Shown here in pieces: positions 1 through 38,478 of a DNA stretch of 64,000 bases (its first letter is position 1; each line of letters starts with the position of its first letter). The position numbers and the translations under genes are program-made. Location: the NCBI GenBank assembly GCA_002841625.1, contig PHAG01000006.1, positions 124,001 to 188,000 on the forward strand, given 5' to 3'. The notes beneath the pieces are model-generated. The model was not told the DNA's origin. It was given only the letters and a program-made list of their open reading frames with translations, and made no database searches. The DNA is from Firmicutes bacterium HGW-Firmicutes-1 (lineage in GTDB: Bacteria; Bacillota; Clostridia; Lachnospirales; Vallitaleaceae).

Positions 1-2
1 TA

Positions 3-3000
3 GATGAAAACTTGGACTTTTTCGCACTGTTTTCCTCGATTTCGGCAGTATTAGGAAATCCAGGACAGGCGGATTATGCCTATGCAAATAGTTTTATGGA
101 TAACTATGCCATTTATAGAAGTCAACTGGAGAAAGAGGAAAAACGACATGGAAAATCTGTTTCCATTAACTGGCCATTGTGGCGTGAAGGTGGCATGAAG
201 GTTGACAGTCAAGTGGAAAGGATGCTTGAGAGTAGAATGGGTATGAAGCTACTCGACACAGACAAAGGCGTAGAAGCATTTACAATTAGTTTGAATACTA
301 AGGTAGATCAGCTGATTGTAGTTCAAGGAAATAGAACGGAAGTCACAAATGCATTGTTAAATAGCAAAGAAAAAACTATAAATGAAAATTCAAATGAACA
401 TCCAAATGAACATTCAGATGAACATTCGAGTGAACATTCGAATAAACATTCAAATGAAGTATTTCAAGAGGTAACTGTCAACGAGGAGGAGCTGCTTAAA
501 AAGATACAGAAGGAACTCAAGGAAACAGTATCAAAAATATTAAAAATTCAAGAAAACGAAATTGATTTAGATGCTGATTTAAGTGAATTTGGTTTTGATT
601 CAATATCCTTTACAGAGTTTAGTAATGAGCTCAATGATAAATATAAACTACAATTAATGCCATCAATATTTTACGAGCATTCCACTTTGTTGTCCTTTGG
701 AAGGTATCTTTTAGAAGATTGCAAAGACGTCTTTATCAAATACTACGGTGATGGGCTTAAAGCAATTAAAAAAGATAACCAAAAGGAAGAAATCATTGTT
801 GAAGAAAAGAGAGTTAGAGCAAGATACAACCTGTCAAAACCATTATTAATCAATGAATTTATTAGAAAAGAAAGTGAACCAGTTGCTATCATTGGCATTA
901 GTGGAATTATGCCACAGTCAGATAATTTAGTGGATTTTTGGAATAATCTAGAGGCTGGCAAAGACTTAATAAAGGAAATCCCTAGTGATCGTTGGGACTA
1001 TAATGAATTTTTTGGTAACCCTATGACTGAACCTAATAAAACCAATGTGAAGTGGGGAGGGTTTATGAATGAGGTAGACAAGTTCGACCCATTGTTCTTT
1101 GGAATTTCTCCAAGGGAAGCGGAGCTTATGGACCCTCAACAAAGAATATTTCTACAAACAGTTTGGAAAACCATAGAAGATGCTGGCTATAAGTCTAAAG
1201 ATATCTCAGATACGAATACGGGTGTTTTTGTCGGTGTGGGTACTTCAGATTACAACGAATTACTTAAAGACCATGAGGTTGAGATACAGGCTCAAACCTC
1301 AACTGGAATATCGCACTCAGTTCTGGCAAATAGAATCTCATTTATTTTAAACTTACATGGGCCAAGTGAGCCAGTTGATACGGCTTGTTCAAGCTCACTT
1401 GTAGCAATTCATAGAGCGGTAGAAGCAATTCAATTAGGAAATTGTGATATGGCAATAGCAGGTGGTGTAAATGTGATTGCAAGTCCAACCCTATACATAT
1501 CCTTTAGCAAGGCGGGGATGCTTTGTGAAGACGGAAGATGTAAAACGTTTGATAAAAATGCCAACGGGTATGTTAGAGGTGAAGGAACGGGAGCTATACT
1601 TCTAAAGCCGTTATCTAAGGCAATTGAAGACTGTGATCATATTTATGCGGTAATTAAGGGAAGTGCAGTAAATCATGGAGGCCATGTAAACTCTTTAACA
1701 ACTCCAAATCCAAATGCCCAAGCAGATTTAATTAGTAAGGCGTGGAAAATAGCAGGAGTTAATCCTTCAACGATCGGGTATATTGAGGCACATGGTACTG
1801 GAACTAGCTTAGGAGATCCTATTGAAATCAATGGATTAAAAAAGGCGTTTGATCAACTTTATAAAGAATGGGGAATTACTTCCCAAAGTCAACAATGTGG
1901 AGTTGGGTCTGTTAAAACGAATATTGGACATCTAGAAACAGCTTCTGGTATTGCAGGACTTTTAAAAGTAATTCTTTCTATGAAAAATAAAAAAATACCA
2001 GCAAGTATTCATTTAACTGAACTTAATCCGTATATAAAATTAGAAGAAAGCCCGTTCTATATCGTAAAGAACACGAAAGATTGGGAACAAATTGGTAATG
2101 AGCCAAGAAGAGCAGGAGTGAGCTCCTTTGGCTTCGGTGGAACCAATGCCCATATTGCCCTTGAAGAATATATTCAAGCTGAGGTAAAGGAAGTTGAGGA
2201 ATTTGAACCACAGATTATAGTTTTATCTGCAAAAAACAGAAAAAGACTAGATAACTATGTTACGGAACTCCTTAAATTTATTGAGAACGCAAGCCAAAAG
2301 AGCAATGATGGTGCGTTGAATTTGCTTCAAAATGTTGAAAATGACTTAAAGAAATTAGCCGCTGAAATAATTATGGTGCCTGCTAATGAAATCAATGAGA
2401 ATGAAGCAATGGATGAATACGGATTTGATCCAGTAAATATAACTAGATTTTATGATATGGTTTGTGAGAAATTTAAAATTGATTTAAAAGCAAAAATAAA
2501 TTCAGGGTATACTTCTTTACATAATATTGGAAATGAATTAGTTACAGAGCACTTTGAACCATTGAAAAATTATTATCCGATAGACTTAAATACATATATT
2601 AAGACTACTCCAAAAGTTTCCTTAGCAGAAATGTCCTACACCTTACAAATAGGAAGAGATGCTATGGCTGATCGTATGGCAATCGTAGTGAGTAGCATTG
2701 AGGAGTTAAGAGAAAGGTTATGTGAATACCTAGATGGGAAGAAGGACATCAAGGATTTATTTATCAGTGCAGCAATTGATAACAAACAAAAAACCCTGCA
2801 ATTAATTGACGAAGAAGAGGGTCAAGAATTTATTGATATATTAATTCAAAAGGGTAAAACAAATAAAATTGCCCAGTTATGGGTTGGTGGTGTGGAAGTT
2901 GACTGGACTAAGGTGCAAAAAAGAGGAGACACTAGAAGACTATCCCTACCTACATATCCCTTTGCAAGAGATCGTTATTGGATACCCGAACAAGATGAAA

Positions 3001-6000
3001 GAAAATTGCTAAAAGCACAAAAAGAAAAAAATAAGCTTCATCCAATGATAGATAAAAACATCTCTACCTTTAAAGAACAAAGGTTTTTAACGGAGCTTAC
3101 TGGCAAGGAGTTTTATTTTGAAGATCATGTTATTGGTGGTAACAAAATACTTCCAGGAGTTGTATACCTTGAGCTTGCAAGAGCAGCAGGGGAACTATCC
3201 TCTGATGAAAAAGTAGCAAAAATAAAAGATGTTGTATGGACAAGACCAATAACTGAAGACGAAACAGGTACAAAGGTTAGTATTTGTCTTTTTCCAAAAA
3301 ATAATTTTGTTGACTTTGAAATTTCTACTGTAGATGAAGCGGGAAATGGTAAGGTTCATGGGCAAGGTAAACTTGTATTTGAAGACAACAAAAGCGATAC
3401 AGTGAAAAATGCAATCGTGGATATTGAAGCAATTAAAAAAAGCTGCAATAAAAATAGTAGTGGCGAAGAGTGCTATAGAAGATTTATTGACGCAGGTTTT
3501 AGCTATGGAAATAGCTTTCAAACAATAACGAAGCTTTATTCAAACGATCAAGAAGCACTTGGTCTATTAACATTGCCAGAACAATTAAAAAATAATTTTA
3601 ATAAATTTATTCTTCACCCATCTATTATGGATGGAGCATTGCAAACAGTTGCGGGTATTGGTGAAGACGATAAAACAACTTATCTGCCCTTTGCCCTTGG
3701 CGAGGTTGAAATTATTGGAGACCTTGTGGAAGAATGTTATGTTTATACAACTCTTTCCAAAAGTGAAGCAAAGGTAAAAAAATTCAAGGTTGAAATTCTT
3801 GATAATAAAGGAAATGTTCTTGTTAGGATTAAGGATTTTTCTTTAAGAGCTCTTGTAAAAGAACAAAAAGAAAAGGCTATAAAGGAAGAGTCTGAAACAA
3901 TTCACTATCGTGTTACGTGGGAAGAAAGCGCCCTCGACAATCATAAGACAGTAGATTTAGTAGCTAAAAGATTCCTGGTTTTTGATTGGGGAACAAAGCA
4001 GTTTAACAGCTTAAAGAAAAAATTAAGCTCTAAAAATAATGGTTTCATCATAGTTAAGGCAGGAGCTTCTTTCAAAAAGCTTAGTGAGGAGCAATACGAA
4101 ATTAACTTTAGTAACAGTGATAACTATATGGAATTAATAAAAGATCTCTCTAAGAATAGCAATATGCCTACACATATTCTTCACCTGTTAAACACTGGGG
4201 ATAATGAAAAACATACTGATTATAACAAACAATTAACCTATGAATTAGAAACAAGTGTGTACTCTATGTTTAACTTATGCCGTAGTCTTATTGAAGAAAA
4301 GCCTAAAGATAAAGTGAAAATCATTTATGCATTTCATAATGACTCTAAGAAAGCGAACCCTCATTATCAGGGAATTAGTGGATTCTTAAAAACTGTAGCA
4401 CTTGAAAACTCAAAAATTGGATTTAAGACTATAGAATTGGAAACAAAAAATTGCGAAGAAATCACCAATATATTCATTTCTGAAGCTGAGGTGAATGATT
4501 TAGAAGTCAAATATAGAGATGGGAAAAGATGGAGAAAATCCATTAAGGAATTAAAGGATATTGATGAACTAACAGTAGGAAATCATAAAACATTGGAAAG
4601 TTCAACCAGCCTTAAGGATAACGGTGTGTACATAATTACTGGAGGAACTGGAGGATTAGGATTAATATTTGCTAAACACATAGCTGAAAATTATAGTGGA
4701 ACTATAGTTTTATCAGGTCGTAGCGATATGGATGCTAAGAAGAGTGAAGAGCTTGAACGATTGAATGAGTATTCTTCAAAAGTAGTATATATGAAAGCAA
4801 ATATTTTAATAAAAGAAGAAGTTGAAAACTTAATTGCTGAAACAAAAAGTAGATTTGGAAGTATCGATGGTATTATCCATTGTGCAGGTGTAGTTAAGGA
4901 TTCCTATATAATAAATAAAACGCAAGATGAGATGAGCGAAGTTTTTGGTCCGAAAATATTTGGTACGAATTGGCTTGATGAGGCAACAAAGGAAGAAAAA
5001 CTTGACTTTTTTGTAATGTTTTCCTCTATTGCAGGGGTATTTGGAAATGCAGGACAGGCAGATTATGCCTATGCAAACAGCTATATGGACAATTTTGCAG
5101 GTATGAGGAATAAGCTTGTTGGAGAAGGTTTGCGTCAGGGAAAATCCTTATCGATTAACTGGCCACTTTGGAGAGCAGGGGGCATGAAAGTAGACAGTCA
5201 TACTGAAAAAATGTTGGAAGCTACAATTGGTATGAAGCTTTTAGATACGAAGATAGGTATTGACGGATTTACATTAGGATTACACCTAGATCAGCCTCAA
5301 TTAATTGTCGTTAATGGCTACAGAAATAAAATAAACAGTATTGTTCATAATACTGGTGAAAAAGAACACTCGAAAGTAGAAAATATTATCGAGATTGATA
5401 CAGAGGATTTGGTTAATAAGGTTCAAGAAGATTTGATGGAAGTGGTTTCCAAAATACTTAAGCTTCAAAAAGAGGATTTAGATTTAGAAGGAGATTTAAG
5501 TGAATTTGGGTTTGATTCCATTACCTTTACAGATTTTAGTAACCAGCTTAATGAAAAGTATAAGTTAAATATTATGCCATCAATATTTTATGAACATTCA
5601 ACTCTATCTTCTTTCATGGAATTTGCCTTAGAAGAATATAGGGAATTAATCTTAAGCTATTATGATAAAGATATGAAGTCAACAAAAAAACTGTTAAATG
5701 ATGATAATTTCAATAGTGAGAAACCTATGGTAGCAACATCAAATAGATTCATCAATACGATTGAAAGCCCGAAAATCGAACCCGTTGCAGTAATAGGTAT
5801 GAGTGGAATAATGCCACAATCAGAAAACCTAGAAGTCTTTTGGGACAATCTTGAGGCAGGAAAGGATTTGATTACAGAAATACCTCCTGATCGTTGGGAT
5901 TGGAAAGAAATCTATGGAAATCCAATGAGAGAAGCGAATAAAACCAATATTATTTGGGGTGGCTTTATGAAGGAAGTTGATAAGTTTGACCCGCTGTTTT

Positions 6001-7712
6001 TTGGTATTTCTCCAAGGGAAGCAGAACTTATGGATCCGCAACAGAGGATTTTCCTTGAGACAGTGTGGAGGACGATTGAAGATGCAGGTTACAAATCAAC
6101 AGATATTTCTGGAACAAAAACAGGAGTATTTGTTGGAGTAGGAACCTCGGATTATAACGATGTAATAAAAGACTCGGGTATTGAAATACAGGCGCAAACT
6201 GCTACAGGAATGGCTCATTGTGTTCTTGCAAACAGAGTATCCTATTTGCTTAACCTTCATGGACCAAGTGAACCGATAGATACTGCTTGTTCAAGCTCGC
6301 TAGTTGCAATTCATAGAGCTGTTGAAGCTATACAATATGGCAATTGCACTATGGCAATTGCAGGAGGAATTAATGTTATTACAAGTCCAACTCTATATAT
6401 CTCTTTCAGCAAAGCTGGAATGTTATGCGAAGATGGAAGATGTAAGACCTTTGACAAAAATGCGAATGGCTATGTTAGAGGGGAAGGTTCTGGAGCAGTG
6501 CTATTAAAACCACTGAGCAAAGCAATTGGAGATGGAGATTATATATACGGTGTGATAAAAGGAAGTGCAGTAAATCATGGAGGACATGCGAATTCTTTGA
6601 CAACCCCAAATCCCAATGCACAAGCAGAACTCATTGTTACAGCTTGGGAGAAAGCGGAAATAGACCCTTCTACGGTAGGATATATTGAAGCTCATGGAAC
6701 TGGTACAAGCCTTGGAGATCCAATAGAGATAAATGGTTTAAAGAAGGCCTTTAGTGAGCTGAATTCAAAGTGGGGAAATAGTATTGAAGAGCCTCATTGT
6801 GCCATTGGATCAGTTAAGACAAATATTGGACATCTTGAAACTGCAGCAGGAATATCTGGCTTACTAAAAGTATTACTAGCATTTAAACATAAAATAATTC
6901 CAGCAAATATTAACCTTAAGAAAATAAATCCATATATCCAATTAGAAGGAAGCCCATTCTATATTATAAATCAATCGATACAGTGGGAGAAAATAGGTAA
7001 TGAACCAAGGCGTGCTGGTGTAAGCTCCTTTGGTTTTGGTGGAACGAATGCCCATATAGTTCTTGAGGAGTATGAAAATAATAAACAGATCGAAACAATT
7101 TATAATGAACCTTCAATCACCGTTTTGTCAGCCAAAAACAATGAAAGTTTGACAACTTATGCACATGATATGGTGGAATTTCTGGAAAGGAAGATTGTGA
7201 AAAAGGAAGCCTTAAACATGAAGGATATGTCATTTACCTCAATCTATGGAAGAGACGCCATGGAAGAAAGAGTAGCAATCCTTGCATCAAGTGTTGAAGA
7301 ACTTAAAGACAAACTTGAGGGATTTTTAAGCAAGGACATAAATGTTGTTGGGTTATTTATGGGAAGTACAAAGGCAAATAAAAAACAGCGACTCGTAACA
7401 AAAGAAAAAGAAGAGGTTAATCATCTTACCCTAAATAAAAACCTTGATGAAATTGCAAAACTATGGGTTATTGGTACTGAAATTGACTGGAGCAGCATTT
7501 GCAATACCGAGACTTCATCAAAAATTTCCTTGCCTACATATCCGTTCAGTAGGGAAAGGTATTGGGTCACTAAAACTGATTCAAATGAAAATCTTCAAAT
7601 TGAAGAGCAACCAAACAATGATTCAGAGCTTGAAATACTAATGGCACTTGAAGCGGGAGAAATTGATTTTGAAGATGCAGTAATGCTAATGGAGGAAGGA
7701 CTATATGAATAA
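3..7712 (+). CDS. trans-AT polyketide synthase subunit (5' end outside window)
   Basis: Modular type I PKS of the trans-AT class: every KS runs into the post-KS linker (LPTYPFAxxRYW) and then DH, KR or the C-terminus, with no AT domain. The frame is open to the window edge, so the gene is 5'-truncated. Numbering from the codon at 3: end of a KR (Tyr25, YAYAN motif), an Asn-Glu-His-Ser repeat linker, ACP (GFDS, Ser200), KS1 (Cys462, His597, His643), an ACP-like insertion without Ser (GFDP, about 760-870), DH (HxxxGxxxxPG His1042; HPSIMD Asp1210), KR (GGTGGLG; Tyr1688), ACP (Ser1839), KS2 (Cys2096), and a C-terminal acidic helical tail of about 35 residues that looks like a docking domain. The protein overlaps the next gene by 8 nt. 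KS1-DH-KR-ACP should install a trans double bond. KS2 lacks its own processing domains and works with the KR-ACP that opens the next protein. Class call is secure; product unknown. Confidence 0.95.
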   Translation, partial: DENLDFFALFSSISAVLGNPGQADYAYANSFMDNYAIYRSQLEKEEKRHGKSVSINWPLWREGGMKVDSQVERMLESRMGMKLLDTDKGVEAFTISLNTKVDQLIVVQGNRTEVTNALLNSKEKTINENSNEHPNEHSDEHSSEHSNKHSNEVFQEVTVNEEELLKKIQKELKETVSKILKIQENEIDLDADLSEFGFDSISFTEFSNELNDKYKLQLMPSIFYEHSTLLSFGRYLLEDCKDVFIKYYGDGLKAIKKDNQKEEIIVEEKRVRARYNLSKPLLINEFIRKESEPVAIIGISGIMPQSDNLVDFWNNLEAGKDLIKEIPSDRWDYNEFFGNPMTEPNKTNVKWGGFMNEVDKFDPLFFGISPREAELMDPQQRIFLQTVWKTIEDAGYKSKDISDTNTGVFVGVGTSDYNELLKDHEVEIQAQTSTGISHSVLANRISFILNLHGPSEPVDTACSSSLVAIHRAVEAIQLGNCDMAIAGGVNVIASPTLYISFSKAGMLCEDGRCKTFDKNANGYVRGEGTGAILLKPLSKAIEDCDHIYAVIKGSAVNHGGHVNSLTTPNPNAQADLISKAWKIAGVNPSTIGYIEAHGTGTSLGDPIEINGLKKAFDQLYKEWGITSQSQQCGVGSVKTNIGHLETASGIAGLLKVILSMKNKKIPASIHLTELNPYIKLEESPFYIVKNTKDWEQIGNEPRRAGVSSFGFGGTNAHIALEEYIQAEVKEVEEFEPQIIVLSAKNRKRLDNYVTELLKFIENASQKSNDGALNLLQNVENDLKKLAAEIIMVPANEINENEAMDEYGFDPVNITRFYDMVCEKFKIDLKAKINSGYTSLHNIGNELVTEHFEPLKNYYPIDLNTYIKTTPKVSLAEMSYTLQIGRDAMADRMAIVVSSIEELRERLCEYLDGKKDIKDLFISAAIDNKQKTLQLIDEEEGQEFIDILIQKGKTNKIAQLWVGGVEVDWTKVQKRGDTRRLSLPTYPFARDRYWIPEQDERKLLKAQKEKNKLHPMIDKNISTFKEQRFLTELTGKEFYFEDHVIGGNKILPGVVYLELARAAGELSSDEKVAKIKDVVWTRPITEDETGTKVSICLFPKNNFVDFEISTVDEAGNGKVHGQGKLVFEDNKSDTVKNAIVDIEAIKKSCNKNSSGEECYRRFIDAGFSYGNSFQTITKLYSNDQEALGLLTLPEQLKNNFNKFILHPSIMDGALQTVAGIGEDDKTTYLPFALGEVEIIGDLVEECYVYTTLSKSEAKVKKFKVEILDNKGNVLVRIKDFSLRALVKEQKEKAIKEESETIHYRVTWEESALDNHKTVDLVAKRFLVFDWGTKQFNSLKKKLSSKNNGFIIVKAGASFKKLSEEQYEINFSNSDNYMELIKDLSKNSNMPTHILHLLNTGDNEKHTDYNKQLTYELETSVYSMFNLCRSLIEEKPKDKVKIIYAFHNDSKKANPHYQGISGFLKTVALENSKIGFKTIELETKNCEEITNIFISEAEVNDLEVKYRDGKRWRKSIKELKDIDELTVGNHKTLESSTSLKDNGVYIITGGTGGLGLIFAKHIAENYSGTIVLSGRSDMDAKKSEELERLNEYSSKVVYMKANILIKEEVENLIAETKSRFGSIDGIIHCAGVVKDSYIINKTQDEMSEVFGPKIFGTNWLDEATKEEKLDFFVMFSSIAGVFGNAGQADYAYANSYMDNFAGMRNKLVGEGLRQGKSLSINWPLWRAGGMKVDSHTEKMLEATIGMKLLDTKIGIDGFTLGLHLDQPQLIVVNGYRNKINSIVHNTGEKEHSKVENIIEIDTEDLVNKVQEDLMEVVSKILKLQKEDLDLEGDLSEFGFDSITFTDFSNQLNEKYKLNIMPSIFYEHSTLSSFMEFALEEYRELILSYYDKDMKSTKKLLNDDNFNSEKPMVATSNRFINTIESPKIEPVAVIGMSGIMPQSENLEVFWDNLEAGKDLITEIPPDRWDWKEIYGNPMREANKTNIIWGGFMKEVDKFDPLFFGISPREAELMDPQQRIFLETVWRTIEDAGYKSTDISGTKTGVFVGVGTSDYNDVIKDSGIEIQAQTATGMAHCVLANRVSYLLNLHGPSEPIDTACSSSLVAIHRAVEAIQYGNCTMAIAGGINVITSPTLYISFSKAGMLCEDGRCKTFDKNANGYVRGEGSGAVLLKPLSKAIGDGDYIYGVIKGSAVNHGGHANSLTTPNPNAQAELIVTAWEKAEIDPSTVGYIEAHGTGTSLGDPIEINGLKKAFSELNSKWGNSIEEPHCAIGSVKTNIGHLETAAGISGLLKVLLAFKHKIIPANINLKKINPYIQLEGSPFYIINQSIQWEKIGNEPRRAGVSSFGFGGTNAHIVLEEYENNKQIETIYNEPSITVLSAKNNESLTTYAHDMVEFLERKIVKKEALNMKDMSFTSIYGRDAMEERVAILASSVEELKDKLEGFLSKDINVVGLFMGSTKANKKQRLVTKEKEEVNHLTLNKNLDEIAKLWVIGTEIDWSSICNTETSSKISLPTYPFSRERYWVTKTDSNENLQIEEQPNNDSELEILMALEAGEIDFEDAVMLMEEGLYE
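380..458 (+). repeat. 12-bp coding repeat (Asn-Glu-His-Ser units)
   Basis: About six imperfect 12-bp units of the form aatgaacattca encode Asn-Glu-His-Ser variants in the linker between the KR and the first ACP. The tract looks like a slippage-prone flexible linker and not a folded domain. Confidence 0.8.
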
Positions 7713-7820
7713 TAATAATTTAGATAAAAGACAGATATTAAAGATGGTTAGTAATCGCGAGATAACATCACAAGAAGCACTAGTACTAATTAAACAGTTG
7801 GAAAAAGCTCCAAGGAAATT
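7590..7820 (+). other. predicted inter-subunit docking interface of the two PKS proteins
   Basis: The first PKS ends in a helix-prone segment with the core LEAGEIDFEDAVMLMEEG. The second starts with DKRQILKMVSNREITSQEALVLIKQLEK-type helices (key residues ILKMV, ITSQEALVLI). Paired C- and N-terminal helical segments of this look are known from four-helix-bundle docking domains of trans-AT PKSs. They join KS2 at the end of one chain to the KR-ACP at the start of the next, so one module is split over two proteins. Assignment is by pattern only. Confidence 0.65.
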
Positions 7821-10800
7821 AAATAAAGAACAGTACAAAGAAGAACAGTACAAAGAAGAACAGTACAAAGAAGAACAGTACAAAGAAGAACAGTACAAAG
7901 AAGAACAGTACAAAGAAGAACAGTACAAAGAAGAACAATACAAAGAAGAACAATACAAAAATGAAATTTCCGAAATCATGTATTATGAACTTGATTGGGA
8001 AAGAATGCCTTTATCTTCTAAGGAAATCAAGGAAGATAAACTAAACAACTTAATCGTTTTTTCTTTAGATACTTCAGAAATAAGTGCATATGAAAAAGCT
8101 AATAATGTACAACTGGATAATAGCATTATTGTAAGACCAGGAAAAGGATTTAATAAAATTAGCAGTAGGGAATTTGAAATTGCTCCTGAGAAAAAAGAGG
8201 ATTATATTCTTCTTTTCTCAGAGCTTTTGGAGAGTGAATTTAATCCAAGTTCAATTATTGACTTATGGTCAACAAAAATCAACAACAATAATTTGAAGCT
8301 AGAAGAATCAACAGAGTTACTAGATTATGGAATTTCACCAATATTTCATATTGTAAAGGCTATTCATCAGCTTAAGATAAAATCCATAACAAGATTTATT
8401 TCAGTTATGAATCATTCAAAGGAAAAAGTCAATCCCTTTGCTTTTGCTATAAAAGGTTTTTCAGGTTCTCTTAACAAGAGCATGCCAAGATTAAATTTTT
8501 CTACTATGGAGTTGGAGGAATTTAGTCTTGAAAAAGGTTTTGAACTTATTTTAAGGGAATTGTCTATCGAAGAAAAATACATTTATCAAGACATTATGTA
8601 TAAAAAAGACGAAAGATATATAAGAAAAATTAAGGAAGCAGTACTTAATGAGGTAGTGCATAATGAAACAGGTATTAAGGATGATGAAATAAAAATAAGA
8701 AAAGACGGCGTATATTTAATTACTGGTGGAGCAGGTGGATTAGGAATTGTTTTAGCAAAACATCTTGTAAGTAAGTATAATGCAAAGCTTATTTTAACTG
8801 GCAGATCAGCCCTTAAGCAAAATAAAAAAGATGAGCTTAAAAAAATGAATGAAGAAGGTGGAGAAATAACCTATTTTCAAGGAAATGTTGGAAATAATGA
8901 GGAAATGGAAGTTGTCATAAGTAAAATTAATAAGAAGTATGGTGCCTTAAACGGGGTAATACATATTGCAGGTTTGCCAGGTTCCATGGAACTTAGCAAA
9001 AAAGAGATCAATGAATTCAAAGAAACACTATTTCCTAAAGTTCAAGGAACCATAGTTCTTGATGAGGTAACTAAAAATGAAGATATAGACTTTATGTTAT
9101 TCTTTTCATCGGCTTCTTCAGTGTTAGGGGACTTTGGTCAAGGTGATTACTCAGTATCAAATAGATTTTTAGATGGATATGTTAAATATCGTGAAGGCTT
9201 AAGAAATGAAAACCTAAGAAAAGGTGTAACAAAAGCAGTCAATTGGCCTCTTTGGAGAGATGGAGGCATGCACCTAGATAGGAAAGTTGAGGAGTTATAC
9301 TTAAGAACCTCAGGTATGAGCTATTTAGAAAACAAAGCAGGAATGGATTCTTTTGAGAAAATATTGAGTAGTATTAAAAGTTATTCAATCGTTCTTTCTG
9401 GAAATAAAGAAAAAATACAAAAGTTTATAAGTAAAGAAAATGATGGTAAAATGCTAGATACCCAAGGAGAAAGAAAAAATATCCAAAGAGGTAGCTTTAA
9501 AACGCAAGCTCCTAAATCGTTGTCCATAAAAGAAAAGATTGAATTTGATGTAAAAGAAATAGCCAGTAAAATAATAAAAATTCCTAGTAATAAGCTTGAT
9601 ATCAATGAAAATCTAGGAGCTTTTGGCTTTGATTCAATAAGTCTTAAAGAATTAGGCGATAAATTAGGTGAGCTATATGGAATTGAACTTTCACCCACCG
9701 TATTCTTTGCTCAAAGCGATATACAAGGTTTATGTGAATACATAGGTTCAGAATTCCAAGAAGTGGTTAGTAATCTTTATTTAGAGGATCATGAAAACAA
9801 CGTTGAAGTTTCAACGGTTGTTGAGACAACAAAGAAGCTGGCACTGCAAAGGAAAATAAGCAACCATCAACAAAGGGCTATGGAAAAAGAGCCGGTTGCC
9901 ATAATAGGAATGAGTGGTATTTACCCAGGTTCAAAAAATCTAGAAGAATTTTGGGATAATCTTGAGGCAGAAAAAGATTTGATAACTGAAATACCTCTTG
10001 ACAGATGGGACTGGAGAGAGTACTACAGTGAAGACCCGTCAGAACCAAATAAGACAAATGCAAAATGGGGCGGTTTTATCGAGGATATAGATAAATTCGA
10101 CGGACATTTTTTTAATATATCTAGGCGAGAAGCAGAGCTTATGGATCCACAACAAAGATTGTTTTTACAAACCTCCTGGAAAGCAATAGAAGATTCAGGC
10201 TATAAACCATCAGAGTTTTGGGGAAGAAACATTGGTGTATTTGTTGGAACACAGTTTACCGATTATCAAGACATAATGGCAGATAAAATTGAAATACAAG
10301 CCCAAATGGGTACTGGAAATGCGCATGCATTACTTAGTAATAGAATATCCTTTTTGCTAAACTTGAAAGGACCAAGTGAGGCAATTGATACTGCTTGCTC
10401 AAGTGCACTTGTAGCCGTACATAGAGCGGTTAAGTCCATACAAAGTGGTGAAAGCGAGCTTGCCCTTGCTGGTGGTGTAAGCTTAACGATATCACCCTAC
10501 ACTCATTTGGGTGCTTCAAAGCTTGGTATACTATCACCAGATGGTAAGTGCAAGACTTTTGACAAAGGTGCAAACGGATATGTAAAAGGGGAAGGTATTG
10601 GTTCACTACTACTAAAACCACTTAGTAAAGCAATCGCTGACAATGACCATATATATGCTGTCATAAAAAGCACGGTAGAAAGTCACGGAGGAAGGGCCAA
10701 TTCACTTACTGCACCCAATTCAGACGCACAGGCAGCGATGCTTGTTAAAGCGTATGAAGAAGCAGGTATTGAACCAGAAAGTATTTCCTATATTGAAGCA

Positions 10801-36536: not shown

Positions 36537-36547
36537 TCAAAAAGCCC

Positions 36548-36570
36548 TTTAAAGGGGACAGGCACTTTTG
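36548..36570 (+). repeat. left copy of AAAGGGGACAGGCACTT, RAYT-associated palindrome
   Basis: AAAGGGGACAGGCACTT occurs here and again in inverted orientation at 38484-38504. The GGGGACAGGCAC motif is commonly seen beside IS200-like REP-associated transposase genes in Firmicutes, and one lies inside this interval. Confidence 0.8.
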
Positions 36571-36784
36571 CCTTATTTTAAGGGAATATAAAGGTAAAAT
36601 TGAAATGGTACCCATGATTTAAACACATTTTTTTTGTGTCTATCCTATGGGTATCTATTTTATTTGCAAATTGAGGAGTGATTATCTTTGCCGTTGTCTC
36701 AAATGCTTATTTAAATAATAAGTCTATTATACTGGAATGGCATCAAGTGTTAGCTAATAATATAGCTAAGATTTTGAGATATTC

Positions 36785-36813
36785 TTGACAAGTTAGCCAT
36801 AAAGAAGTAAAAT
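36785..36813 (+). promoter_or_regulatory. sigma-A promoter of the Phd-Uma2 gene
   Basis: Consensus TTGACA (36785-36790), 17-nt spacer, TAAAAT (36808-36813). The palindrome TTAGCTA/TAGCTAA lies 16 nt upstream. It is a candidate operator for the Phd-like N-terminal domain of the encoded protein, since Phd/YefM proteins bind palindromes at their own promoters. Confidence 0.8.
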
Positions 36814-36852
36814 ATACCTAAAACAGCAAACGAATTTTAGGGAGATGGTAAA

Positions 36853-37584
36853 ATGAGAGTATCAACGACAGATATTCAAAATAGTTTTGGAAAGTATTTA
36901 GCACAAGCAATAGCAGAAGAGGATATTATTATTACTAAAAATGGCAAGGGTGTAGCTAAGTTGGTTGCCTTTGAAGATGAACAGAGTGGCATGATAAAAG
37001 AGCAAGGCCTAAATTACAAGAAAGAAAGAAAAGTAACCTACGAGGAATATCTTGAAATTGTTGAAAATACGGATGAAAGATATGAACTCATTGATGGTGA
37101 GATTTATTATATGGCTTCGCCATTATTTAAGCATCAGGTCGCTGTGAATGAGATATTTGGACATTTTTACAACTGGTTTAAAGGAAAGCCCTGCAGACCA
37201 CTTACATCCCCTTTTGATGTTAAGCTTTTCAACAATGCGAAGAGATTTGAGGATGATCCTAATGTAGTCCAACCCGATATTCTAGTAATGTGTGATGAAG
37301 AGAAGGTTACTACTGAAGGTAAATACGAAGGGACACCAACCTTAGTAGTTGAAGTATTATCCAAGTCAACAAGAAGTAAAGATATGGTGAAAAAAATGAA
37401 TTTATTTATGAATAGTAACATAAAGGAGTATTGGCTTGTAGATACAGAAAAAGAGTTGACATATGTTTACTATTTTGAGGAACGAGATATCAGAGATAGT
37501 TGGGTATATTTGAAAGATATGACTATTAAGTCAGAGATTTTCAAAGGGCTAGAAATTAACGTTAGTGATATCTTTACATGGTGA
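36853..37584 (+). CDS. Phd/YefM antitoxin - Uma2 (DUF820) nuclease-fold fusion
   Basis: A 243-residue protein of two parts. Residues 1-45 (VSTTDIQNSFGKYLAQA ... DIIITKNGKGVAKLV) match the DNA-binding N-terminal half of Phd/YefM antitoxins. Residues 60-243 match the Uma2 family of PD-(D/E)XK-fold proteins: YEELIDGEI-like YELIDGEIYYM, the Asp of VQPDILV, the Glu of LVVEVLS, and a Lys/Ser-rich helix before NLFM. No separate toxin gene accompanies it. It has its own strong promoter and a terminator. One reading is a self-regulated nuclease; another is a chromosomal relic of a mobile unit, since it lies between inverted repeats next to a transposase. Uma2 function is generally unproven. Confidence 0.85.
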   Translation: MRVSTTDIQNSFGKYLAQAIAEEDIIITKNGKGVAKLVAFEDEQSGMIKEQGLNYKKERKVTYEEYLEIVENTDERYELIDGEIYYMASPLFKHQVAVNEIFGHFYNWFKGKPCRPLTSPFDVKLFNNAKRFEDDPNVVQPDILVMCDEEKVTTEGKYEGTPTLVVEVLSKSTRSKDMVKKMNLFMNSNIKEYWLVDTEKELTYVYYFEERDIRDSWVYLKDMTIKSEIFKGLEINVSDIFTW

Positions 37585-37611
37585 ACCAGAAAATTTAATT
37601 TACCTCTTATG

Positions 37612-37645
37612 GTTTGAAGGTTTATTCAATAGCCTTCTTTTTTTG
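37612..37645 (+). terminator. terminator after the Phd-Uma2 gene
   Basis: GAAGG / CCTTC stem with a 12-nt loop, followed by a run of eight T. Confidence 0.65.
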
Positions 37646-37719
37646 TTGTATGCTATCAGCAGACCAATGATTCTAAATATTGTGATATGCTACAAATAAA
37701 AAAGAGAGGGTGAATATTT

Positions 37720-38478
37720 ATGCCAAGAAAAAATAGGATAGTTAGTTCAACAGGATTATACCACAATATGTTAAAAGGCATTGATAATCGAAATATATTT
37801 ATGGACGATTATGACAGATCTAAATTTCTAGAAATATTAAAAGAAACCGTAGAAAAAGAATCGTGTTCAATTATGCTATATTGTTTAATGAACAATCATG
37901 TACATTTATTATTAGAAGATCTGGGGAATATGAGTGTAAGTATGAAAAGGATTGGAGAAACGTACGCTAAATATCATAATAAAAAATATCAAAGAGTGGG
38001 CCATTTGTTTCAAAGCCGTTACAAGAGTGAGCCAGTTGAAACAGAAAATCATCTAAGAGTACTATTTACTTACATCCATAATAATCCTGTTAAGGCTGGG
38101 TTGATAAAGGAGCCTCATAAATATGAATGGAGTAGCTGTAAGACATATTATAAAAATATAAGAAAGAATAATTGGTTAAATACAAGTATATATCATACAT
38201 TTTTTTTAACTAGAGAGGAAATGCTTGGTGTAATGTTTGAATGTAAAATAATTTACAAACCATCTTGGAATATAAACAATCGATGGACAGATGATGAGTT
38301 AAATATGATTTTGAAACATGAATTAGAGAGTTTTCCTGTTATCACTAATAAGAAGAGAAACAACGAACTCATTATCGATATGAGGAATAAAACGGGTGCC
38401 TCCTATAAACAGCTTGGACGCGTTATGGGTATTAGTACAGGTATCGTTGAAAGAATATGTAGAGATAGAACGAAATAA
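37720..38478 (+). CDS. REP-associated tyrosine transposase (RAYT, Y1/IS200-like HUH) with C-terminal HTH
   Basis: A 252-residue transposase-like protein. The N-terminal domain has the HUH metal motif in MNNHVHLLL (near residue 65), followed by the helix with candidate catalytic Tyr (ETYAKYHNKKY) and the conserved VGHLFQSRYKS. YIHNNPVKAGL is also typical of RAYTs. The last 65 residues end in a helix-turn-helix (GASYKQLGRVMGISTGIVERICR), an extension seen in many Firmicute members. RAYTs act on short palindromes dispersed in the genome. The reading frame looks intact. The ribosome site is GAGAGGGTG. Confidence 0.92.
   Translation: MPRKNRIVSSTGLYHNMLKGIDNRNIFMDDYDRSKFLEILKETVEKESCSIMLYCLMNNHVHLLLEDLGNMSVSMKRIGETYAKYHNKKYQRVGHLFQSRYKSEPVETENHLRVLFTYIHNNPVKAGLIKEPHKYEWSSCKTYYKNIRKNNWLNTSIYHTFFLTREEMLGVMFECKIIYKPSWNINNRWTDDELNMILKHELESFPVITNKKRNNELIIDMRNKTGASYKQLGRVMGISTGIVERICRDRTK

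Follow-up and report, generated by a model that had tools for sequence, protein, structure and literature searches.

phd-uma2, a probable self-repressed single-gene module with TAGCTA operator arrays

The locus and its protein

The window (the whole stretch of DNA analysed here, 64,000 nucleotides of a contig from Firmicutes bacterium HGW-Firmicutes-1) carries on its forward strand a single ORF at 36853-37584; ORF calling and translation give a 243-aa protein with two domains and a disordered linker. The features of the gene and its surroundings are as follows.

36750-36769, no strand assigned: putative operator pair upstream of the gene, TTAGCTA-N6-TAGCTAA, whose TAGCTA copies (36751-36756 and 36763-36768) are spaced by 12 bp
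36785-36813, forward strand: predicted sigma-70-type promoter TTGACA-17-TAAAAT, an 11/12 match
36794-36799, no strand assigned: putative degenerate operator site TAGCCA in the -35/-10 spacer, starting at -14 from the -10 hexamer, one mismatch
36815-36820, no strand assigned: putative degenerate operator site TACCTA just past the -10, starting at +7, one mismatch (relatives show a peak at +7 to +9)
36840-36844, forward strand: ribosome-binding site GGGAG, read by eye
36853-37584, forward strand: phd-uma2 fusion gene, 243 aa and stop (ORF and Pfam profile matches)
36853-36978, forward strand: Phd/YefM DNA-binding domain, residues 1-42 (Pfam; VapB46 and Phd N-terminal fold matches), whose Asn10 and Phe12 track TAGCTA operators
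36979-37032, forward strand: linker, residues 43-60, with pLDDT under 50 at residues 44-57, at the site of the Phd antitoxin C-terminal tail (alignment with Phd-PIN antitoxins)
37042-37563, forward strand: Uma2 PD-(D/E)XK-fold domain, residues 64-237 (Pfam and fold matches), with E78, D122, D142, E167 and K181 conserved
37616-37647, forward strand: predicted intrinsic terminator, a hairpin at 37616-37637 followed by a T run

Both domains are recognized by profile. Pfam PhdYeFM_antitox matches residues 3-42 (34.5 bits against a cut-off of 29.8; TIGR01552 gives 30.8 bits against 20.8), and Pfam Uma2 (PF05685) matches residues 64-237 (103.6 bits against a cut-off of 27, profile positions 2-171 of 172). 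With both above their Pfam cut-offs, the initial annotation was right to see a Phd/YefM N-terminus and a complete Uma2 domain in one protein. A predicted model (mean pLDDT 87.0, pTM 0.71) contains both domains and a disordered linker, and fold comparison of that model matches the Uma2 half to the solved Uma2 structures 6OKH, 9Y1L, 3OT2 and 1WDJ at Z 20-24.5, with 6OKH at the top (Z 24.5 over 173 residues, rmsd 1.6). The Phd half matches VapB46 and Phd N-terminal domains at Z 7.5 and below over 42-49 residues; because these values fall in the range that the tool calls ambiguous, its identity rests on the Pfam match. A PDB sequence search with the first 50 residues returned no match up to E 5. 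The C-terminal toxin-binding tail is missing: the Phd profile is matched only over positions 4-44 of 74, and the C-terminal part of four aligned Phd-PIN antitoxins mostly lacks a counterpart in residues 1-50 of the fusion.

The regulatory features named by the initial annotation also stand. TTAGCTA-N6-TAGCTAA is an exact inverted repeat and the sole such pair with a gap of up to 30 in the window. Terminator-like sites are rare by chance (2 found in the stretch, 0.3 expected). The promoter is a good match, though in this stretch promoter-like sites are, as a class, no more frequent than in shuffles (6 found, 5.2 expected); it gains support because the operator sites of relatives keep preferred distances from the predicted -10. 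Counted from that hexamer, the window gene has exact TAGCTA at -57 and -45 and degenerate sites at -14 and +7, and its same-genus orthologue has exact TAGCTA at -46 and -14. The one-mismatch sites, at 36794 and 36815, had been missed, and they occupy positions preferred in relatives.

Operator words upstream of Phd-headed genes

Relatives contributed 34 fusions to the comparison and a named-genome scan 81, giving 115 distinct fusions once five duplicates (L102, L113, L116, L128, L148) and three partial matches had been removed. Start codons were set by rule, which mis-started L155; the second gene of L150 is in tandem. The alignments held 31 of 34 sequences (A1) and 53 sequences (A2, the window protein and 52 locus proteins). 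Operators were counted in the 120 bp upstream: two genes with less sequence than this were left out and the other 113 were clustered to 80 (under 80% identity), with 100 dinucleotide shuffles, which ignore shared ancestry, as background. At least one TAGCTA occurs in 63 of the 80 upstream regions (shuffle mean 8.2, maximum 14) and at least two in 53 (shuffle mean 0.44, maximum 3). Of the 64 possible palindromic hexamers, just two beat every one of 60 shuffles: TAGCTA and CGTACG, the latter being present in 6/80 (shuffle mean 0.5).

The word is near background in control regions of the same loci: it occurs downstream in 2/115 and at the start of the coding sequence in 6/115, and far upstream there is one copy in 5/109 and two in none. 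Upstream of 26 Uma2 genes scored as having no Phd head, one TAGCTA copy occurs at a single gene and two copies at none; this set includes the mis-started fusion L155, four genes with HTH heads and the near-identical pair L037/L038, and without L155 the counts for the 25 genes are unchanged. Six Phd genes without Uma2 in the window's own genome have TAGCTA upstream in 0/6. The other heads found on Uma2 are HTH_17 (L125:6008-6775, L174:8004-8723 and L181:1239-1991) and HTH_3 (L033:1447-2268), and at these four loci no palindromic hexamer occurs twice within 150 bp upstream.

Where TAGCTA is repeated, its placement is regular. Of 80 intervals between successive copies, 47 measure 20-23 bp and 16 measure 30-33 bp (63 together), and relative to the predicted -10 the 179 sites of 72 genes, close relatives included, peak at -37 to -35 (40 sites), -15 to -13 (44) and +7 to +9 (24), with lesser peaks at -4 and at +16 to +17. 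Sites before the -35, in the -35/-10 spacer and after the -10 are in the positions expected of a repressor. Overlap of any kind with the -35 to -10 region, found in 57 of the 72 genes, is only modestly above that of circularly shifted sites (0.57 of trials).

Two side clades replace TAGCTA by CGTACG or TGATTAAT, and the replacement tracks Phd residues 10 and 12. In the protein tree, a clade of nine has TCGTACGA-like words (at most one mismatch) upstream in 9/9 (shuffle mean 0.72) and a clade of six has TGATTAAT upstream in 6/6 (shuffle mean 0.37); neither has TAGCTA in the 120 bp upstream. Every fusion with at least two TAGCTA copies has N10 (78/78), with F at residue 12 in 76 and V in 2; the TGATTAAT class has T10 in 6/6, and the CGTACG class has L or M at residue 12 in 10/10. 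N10 is not confined to that group: some fusions with a single TAGCTA or none have it too, as does one fusion of the CGTACG class. Two TAGCTA members branch next to the CGTACG clade, yet retain N10 and F12. Geometry varies among the classes: 6 of 11 CGTACG-type promoters have a site at -13 or -12 (for example, -55, -43, -13 and +8) and 5 of 11 have no spacer site, while TGATTAAT sites mostly overlap the -35 instead. A single TAGCTA is found in 12/115 fusions, and 9/115 have no operator class (two of these with under 41 bp upstream), N10 being present in 6 of the 9. Within the window's own genome, the eight Phd-headed copies represent three operator classes. This putative operator code, read from sequence, is the main new result of the analysis.

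Two-gene modules offer an independent check. All five loci returned by a scan of viral contigs match no more than the Phd part, and these contigs carry Phd antitoxins followed by PIN-type genes rather than fusions (Pfam on pairs L248 and L249); the viral-contig Phd genes L248-L257 have TAGCTA upstream and PIN-type genes after them. The sample, drawn from viral contigs and genomes of the phylum, comprised 32 distinct Phd proteins of under 141 aa. Those with a QNNFG motif have TAGCTA upstream in 8/8 (near-identical rows such as L256 and L257 included), with two copies 25 bp apart in seven of the eight, and a PIN-type ORF, judged by eye, comes next in all. Three Phd proteins with N10 but L or I at residue 12 have no TAGCTA, and one of them, L277, has two CGTACG. 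Since QNNFG Phd-PIN pairs carry TAGCTA, the word goes with the Phd head and not with the Uma2 domain.

Taken together, the TAGCTA arrays, the joint switching of operator and protein, the negative Uma2 solo genes and the positive Phd-PIN pairs make it very probable that the Phd half acts as repressor of the gene's own promoter, and the self-repression proposed in the initial annotation is to that extent strongly supported. Against it stand two of the 20 Phd genes classed by rule as lacking N10: 18 have no TAGCTA, but L274 has two and L266 one (four of the 32 rows could not be parsed by the rule and were counted as lacking N10; L269, by eye, has N10 and Leu at 12).

A regulon in trans was considered and set aside, although an outside target may exist. 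The genome holds 24 TAGCTA pairs against 6 for the reversed pattern; three of the 24 belong to Phd-Uma2 promoters, and repetitive stretches at two contig ends account for ten more. Nine of the other eleven (all but C11:15395 and C12:50138) were inspected, and a mechanical ORF finder put eight inside an ORF and one (L089) between genes.

Distribution and genomic surroundings

Such fusions are common. The protein is matched in 35/96 genomes of relatives, own genome included, and a survey across a phylum sample found whole-protein matches in at least 110 rows and at least 55/398 genomes (own genome included), counts that are a floor given that at most seven candidates were scored per genome. Among the best 80 loci of the named-genome scan, the match begins at residue 1-3 in 79, and hosts include Paenibacillus, Cohnella, Desulfosporosinus, Ruminiclostridium, Petrocella and many Syntrophomonas-type assemblies. 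The window's own genome has nine Uma2 genes, eight with a Phd-type head, one of the eight being truncated (C11:120875); six of the nine lie in mixed orientations on one 125-kb contig (G000:C11:44000-121500). Elsewhere, a Thermoanaerobacterium ppdk-deletion strain is described, in the passages available, with 20 variants at about 36-45% frequency inside one Uma2 gene (PMC6997586); mixing of paralogues is one possible reason.

The initial annotation saw no separate toxin, and the wider set agrees: there is no consistent partner gene across the 115 loci, and a same-strand downstream ORF lies within 60 bp in only 13/113. Three broad neighbour clusters, named by eye and found at varied positions, do recur: one that includes a TetR-like example (15 loci), one of other Phd/Uma2 proteins (14) and an ABC-ATPase-like one (12). 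In one genus the fusion gene sits amid ParE/RelE/YoeB toxin genes with repeats between them. At locus L234 (G016 C1:2115000-2134999, about 1-9500), mostly same-strand genes are parted by related repeats of roughly 50-110 bp. This run, which resembles a cassette array, contains ParE, YoeB, RelE and HTH_3 genes, the Phd-Uma2 gene, one AAA/DUF4143 gene and DUF2200.

The spot occupied by the window gene is variable. It extends over 36540-37720, from malQ (named by eye) to an IS200-like Y1 transposase gene at 37720-38478; in a same-genus genome (G001) a 530-aa ORF and a 167-aa ORF lie between malQ and the transposase gene, and the fusion gene is elsewhere. DNA conservation between fusions often spans the outermost TAGCTA to just beyond the stop, and several pairs have different flanks around genes that are 92-97% alike. 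We nevertheless make no claim of a precise mobile cassette: flanking direct repeats were found in only 7/115 (short-flank loci were skipped), and some pairs share longer flanks. Carriage by phages or plasmids was likewise set aside, as a single phage record matches (37% identity over residues 75-241) and the 40 matching plasmid records likewise stay below 60% identity; among the 25 plasmid matches listed, none begins before residue 23.

Proposed mode of action and known systems

We regard phd-uma2 as a real and widespread single-gene module that is very probably self-repressed. The Phd half, presumably as a dimer like those in Phd/YefM structures, would bind the TAGCTA array over its own promoter and in all likelihood keep expression low. 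The fused Uma2 half would be a PD-(D/E)XK phosphodiesterase whose activity, to judge from its invariant presumed active-site residues, is under selection; most likely, at roughly even odds, it is a nuclease that acts as a TA-like or defence effector once the operator is vacated, which could come about through proteolysis, dilution or an invader's factor. Head and operator are common to the fusion and two-gene Phd-PIN modules, but here the antitoxin tail is absent and the effector lies in cis. For the combined reading, a one-gene self-repressing effector that couples Phd operator repression to a selected Uma2 phosphodiesterase and is likely a TA-like or defence nuclease, we would put the chances somewhat above even. 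One limit is that neither promoter-proximal site of the window gene is exact, and that the pair which is exact sits upstream of the -35, where an activator could also bind.

The operator evidence by itself would fit a plain autoregulator, in which Phd binds DNA and Uma2 only oligomerizes or senses a ligand. No Uma2 activity was found in the literature passages available, and a 2005 paper, in the part seen, took the conserved acidic residues as possible DNA binding (PMC1274311). It is the conservation of the Uma2 half that makes this reading unlikely. Retention of the presumed catalytic residues, which bears on the nuclease claim of the initial annotation, was checked by alignment: E78, D122, D142 and E167 are invariant in 115/115 fusions and K181 in 114/115, the exception being a truncated copy. 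We take these five residues to be the active site, with its metal site, of PD-(D/E)XK phosphodiesterases. Because they are invariant in intact copies, catalysis by the Uma2 half is probably under selection. In the one pair compared, the window gene and its same-genus orthologue, dN/dS is 0.094 overall, and the Uma2 part (0.070) is more constrained than the Phd part (0.115) or the linker (0.298). Uma2 proteins without a DNA-binding head also exist, so the domain is useful by itself.

It is distinctly improbable that the fusion is a type II toxin-antitoxin system in one chain, with the Phd part directly inhibiting Uma2 until a trigger arrives. Fused systems such as CapRel exist (PMC9712102, in the passages available) and the head is one common to Phd-PIN modules, but the part of the Phd profile beyond the matched positions is missing, the linker is disordered in the predicted model, and some Uma2 proteins have no Phd head at all. 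Very improbable indeed is a sequence-directed endonuclease, guided FokI-fashion by Phd to TAGCTA in foreign DNA: a DNA-reading head is joined to a nuclease fold here, as HTH_17 and HTH_3 heads are on other Uma2 proteins, but TAGCTA is not avoided in the window's own genome as a cut site would be (54 seen against 48.8 expected in 179,575 bases, fusion promoters included, with 44 of 58 palindromes ranking below it), and the gene retains several TAGCTA-type sites in its own promoter.

A more speculative extension, which we consider improbable, is that TAGCTA is an operator word common to defence and TA modules, so that a single trigger of de-repression (a phage factor, for instance, or the loss of unstable repressors) could fire several together. 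Three kinds of repressor would then read it (the Phd of Phd-PIN, Phd-Uma2 and the unrelated RptR), with Phd-Uma2 as the extreme case: repressor and nuclease would be one molecule, and leaving the operator would both open the gene and free the weapon. For the single-gene effector itself, the implications are nearer at hand. Uma2 proteins are numerous and unexplained, and a large branch of them gains a concrete, cheap test, with a short operator of preferred spacing and a protein position predicted to set operator sequence as handles, and natural paralogues with three operator words in one genome as a further one. If confirmed, the Phd head would be a swappable reading module across two-gene and one-gene systems, and promoter de-repression a route to the Uma2 substrate.

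The claim of a new arrangement holds in part. The self-repressing fusion appears to be new, and no title in the open-licence literature searched names Phd-Uma2 fusions or their operators; on the other side, the fusion is common in the phylum and its effector half was already noticed. In the passages available, Makarova in 2009 listed Uma2 as a likely solo toxin, a predicted PD-(D/E)XK endonuclease rarely associated with known antitoxins (PMC2701414), and PADLOC lists Uma2-type models as the phage-defence candidate PDC-S03. Four PDC-S03 models match the Uma2 part of the fusion (best E 1.9e-55, residues 56-241); the matches begin at residue 54-58, with the Phd head outside them, and the defence role of PDC-S03 is itself only a candidate one. 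Like Uma2 / COG4636 / DUF820 proteins, the fusion has a complete Uma2 domain, closest to the four structures named above, but whereas those are described as solo proteins it also has a DNA-binding head of antitoxin type and a putative operator dedicated to it. RptR, the repressor of a type I RM / DarTG2 phage-defence island, reads the same 6-bp word, binding three repeats over its own promoter with two sites needed; according to the passages available, it is an all-helical 79-aa protein with no close structural relatives, encoded by a separate gene (PMC12255303), whereas Phd-Uma2 is a fusion with neighbouring sites mostly 20-23 or 30-33 bp apart. The nearest likeness is to Phd/YefM antitoxins (YefM-YoeB and Phd-PIN), which have the same DNA-binding domain and repeated palindromic hexamers in the promoter: the QNNFG Phd-PIN pairs share TAGCTA itself, and Escherichia coli YefM has two TGTACA palindromes 12 bp apart centre to centre (PMC4803016, in the passages available), as the window gene has 12-bp spacing of TAGCTA. 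Unlike these two-gene modules, the fusion has neither the C-terminal antitoxin tail nor a partner toxin gene, and carries its putative effector in cis.
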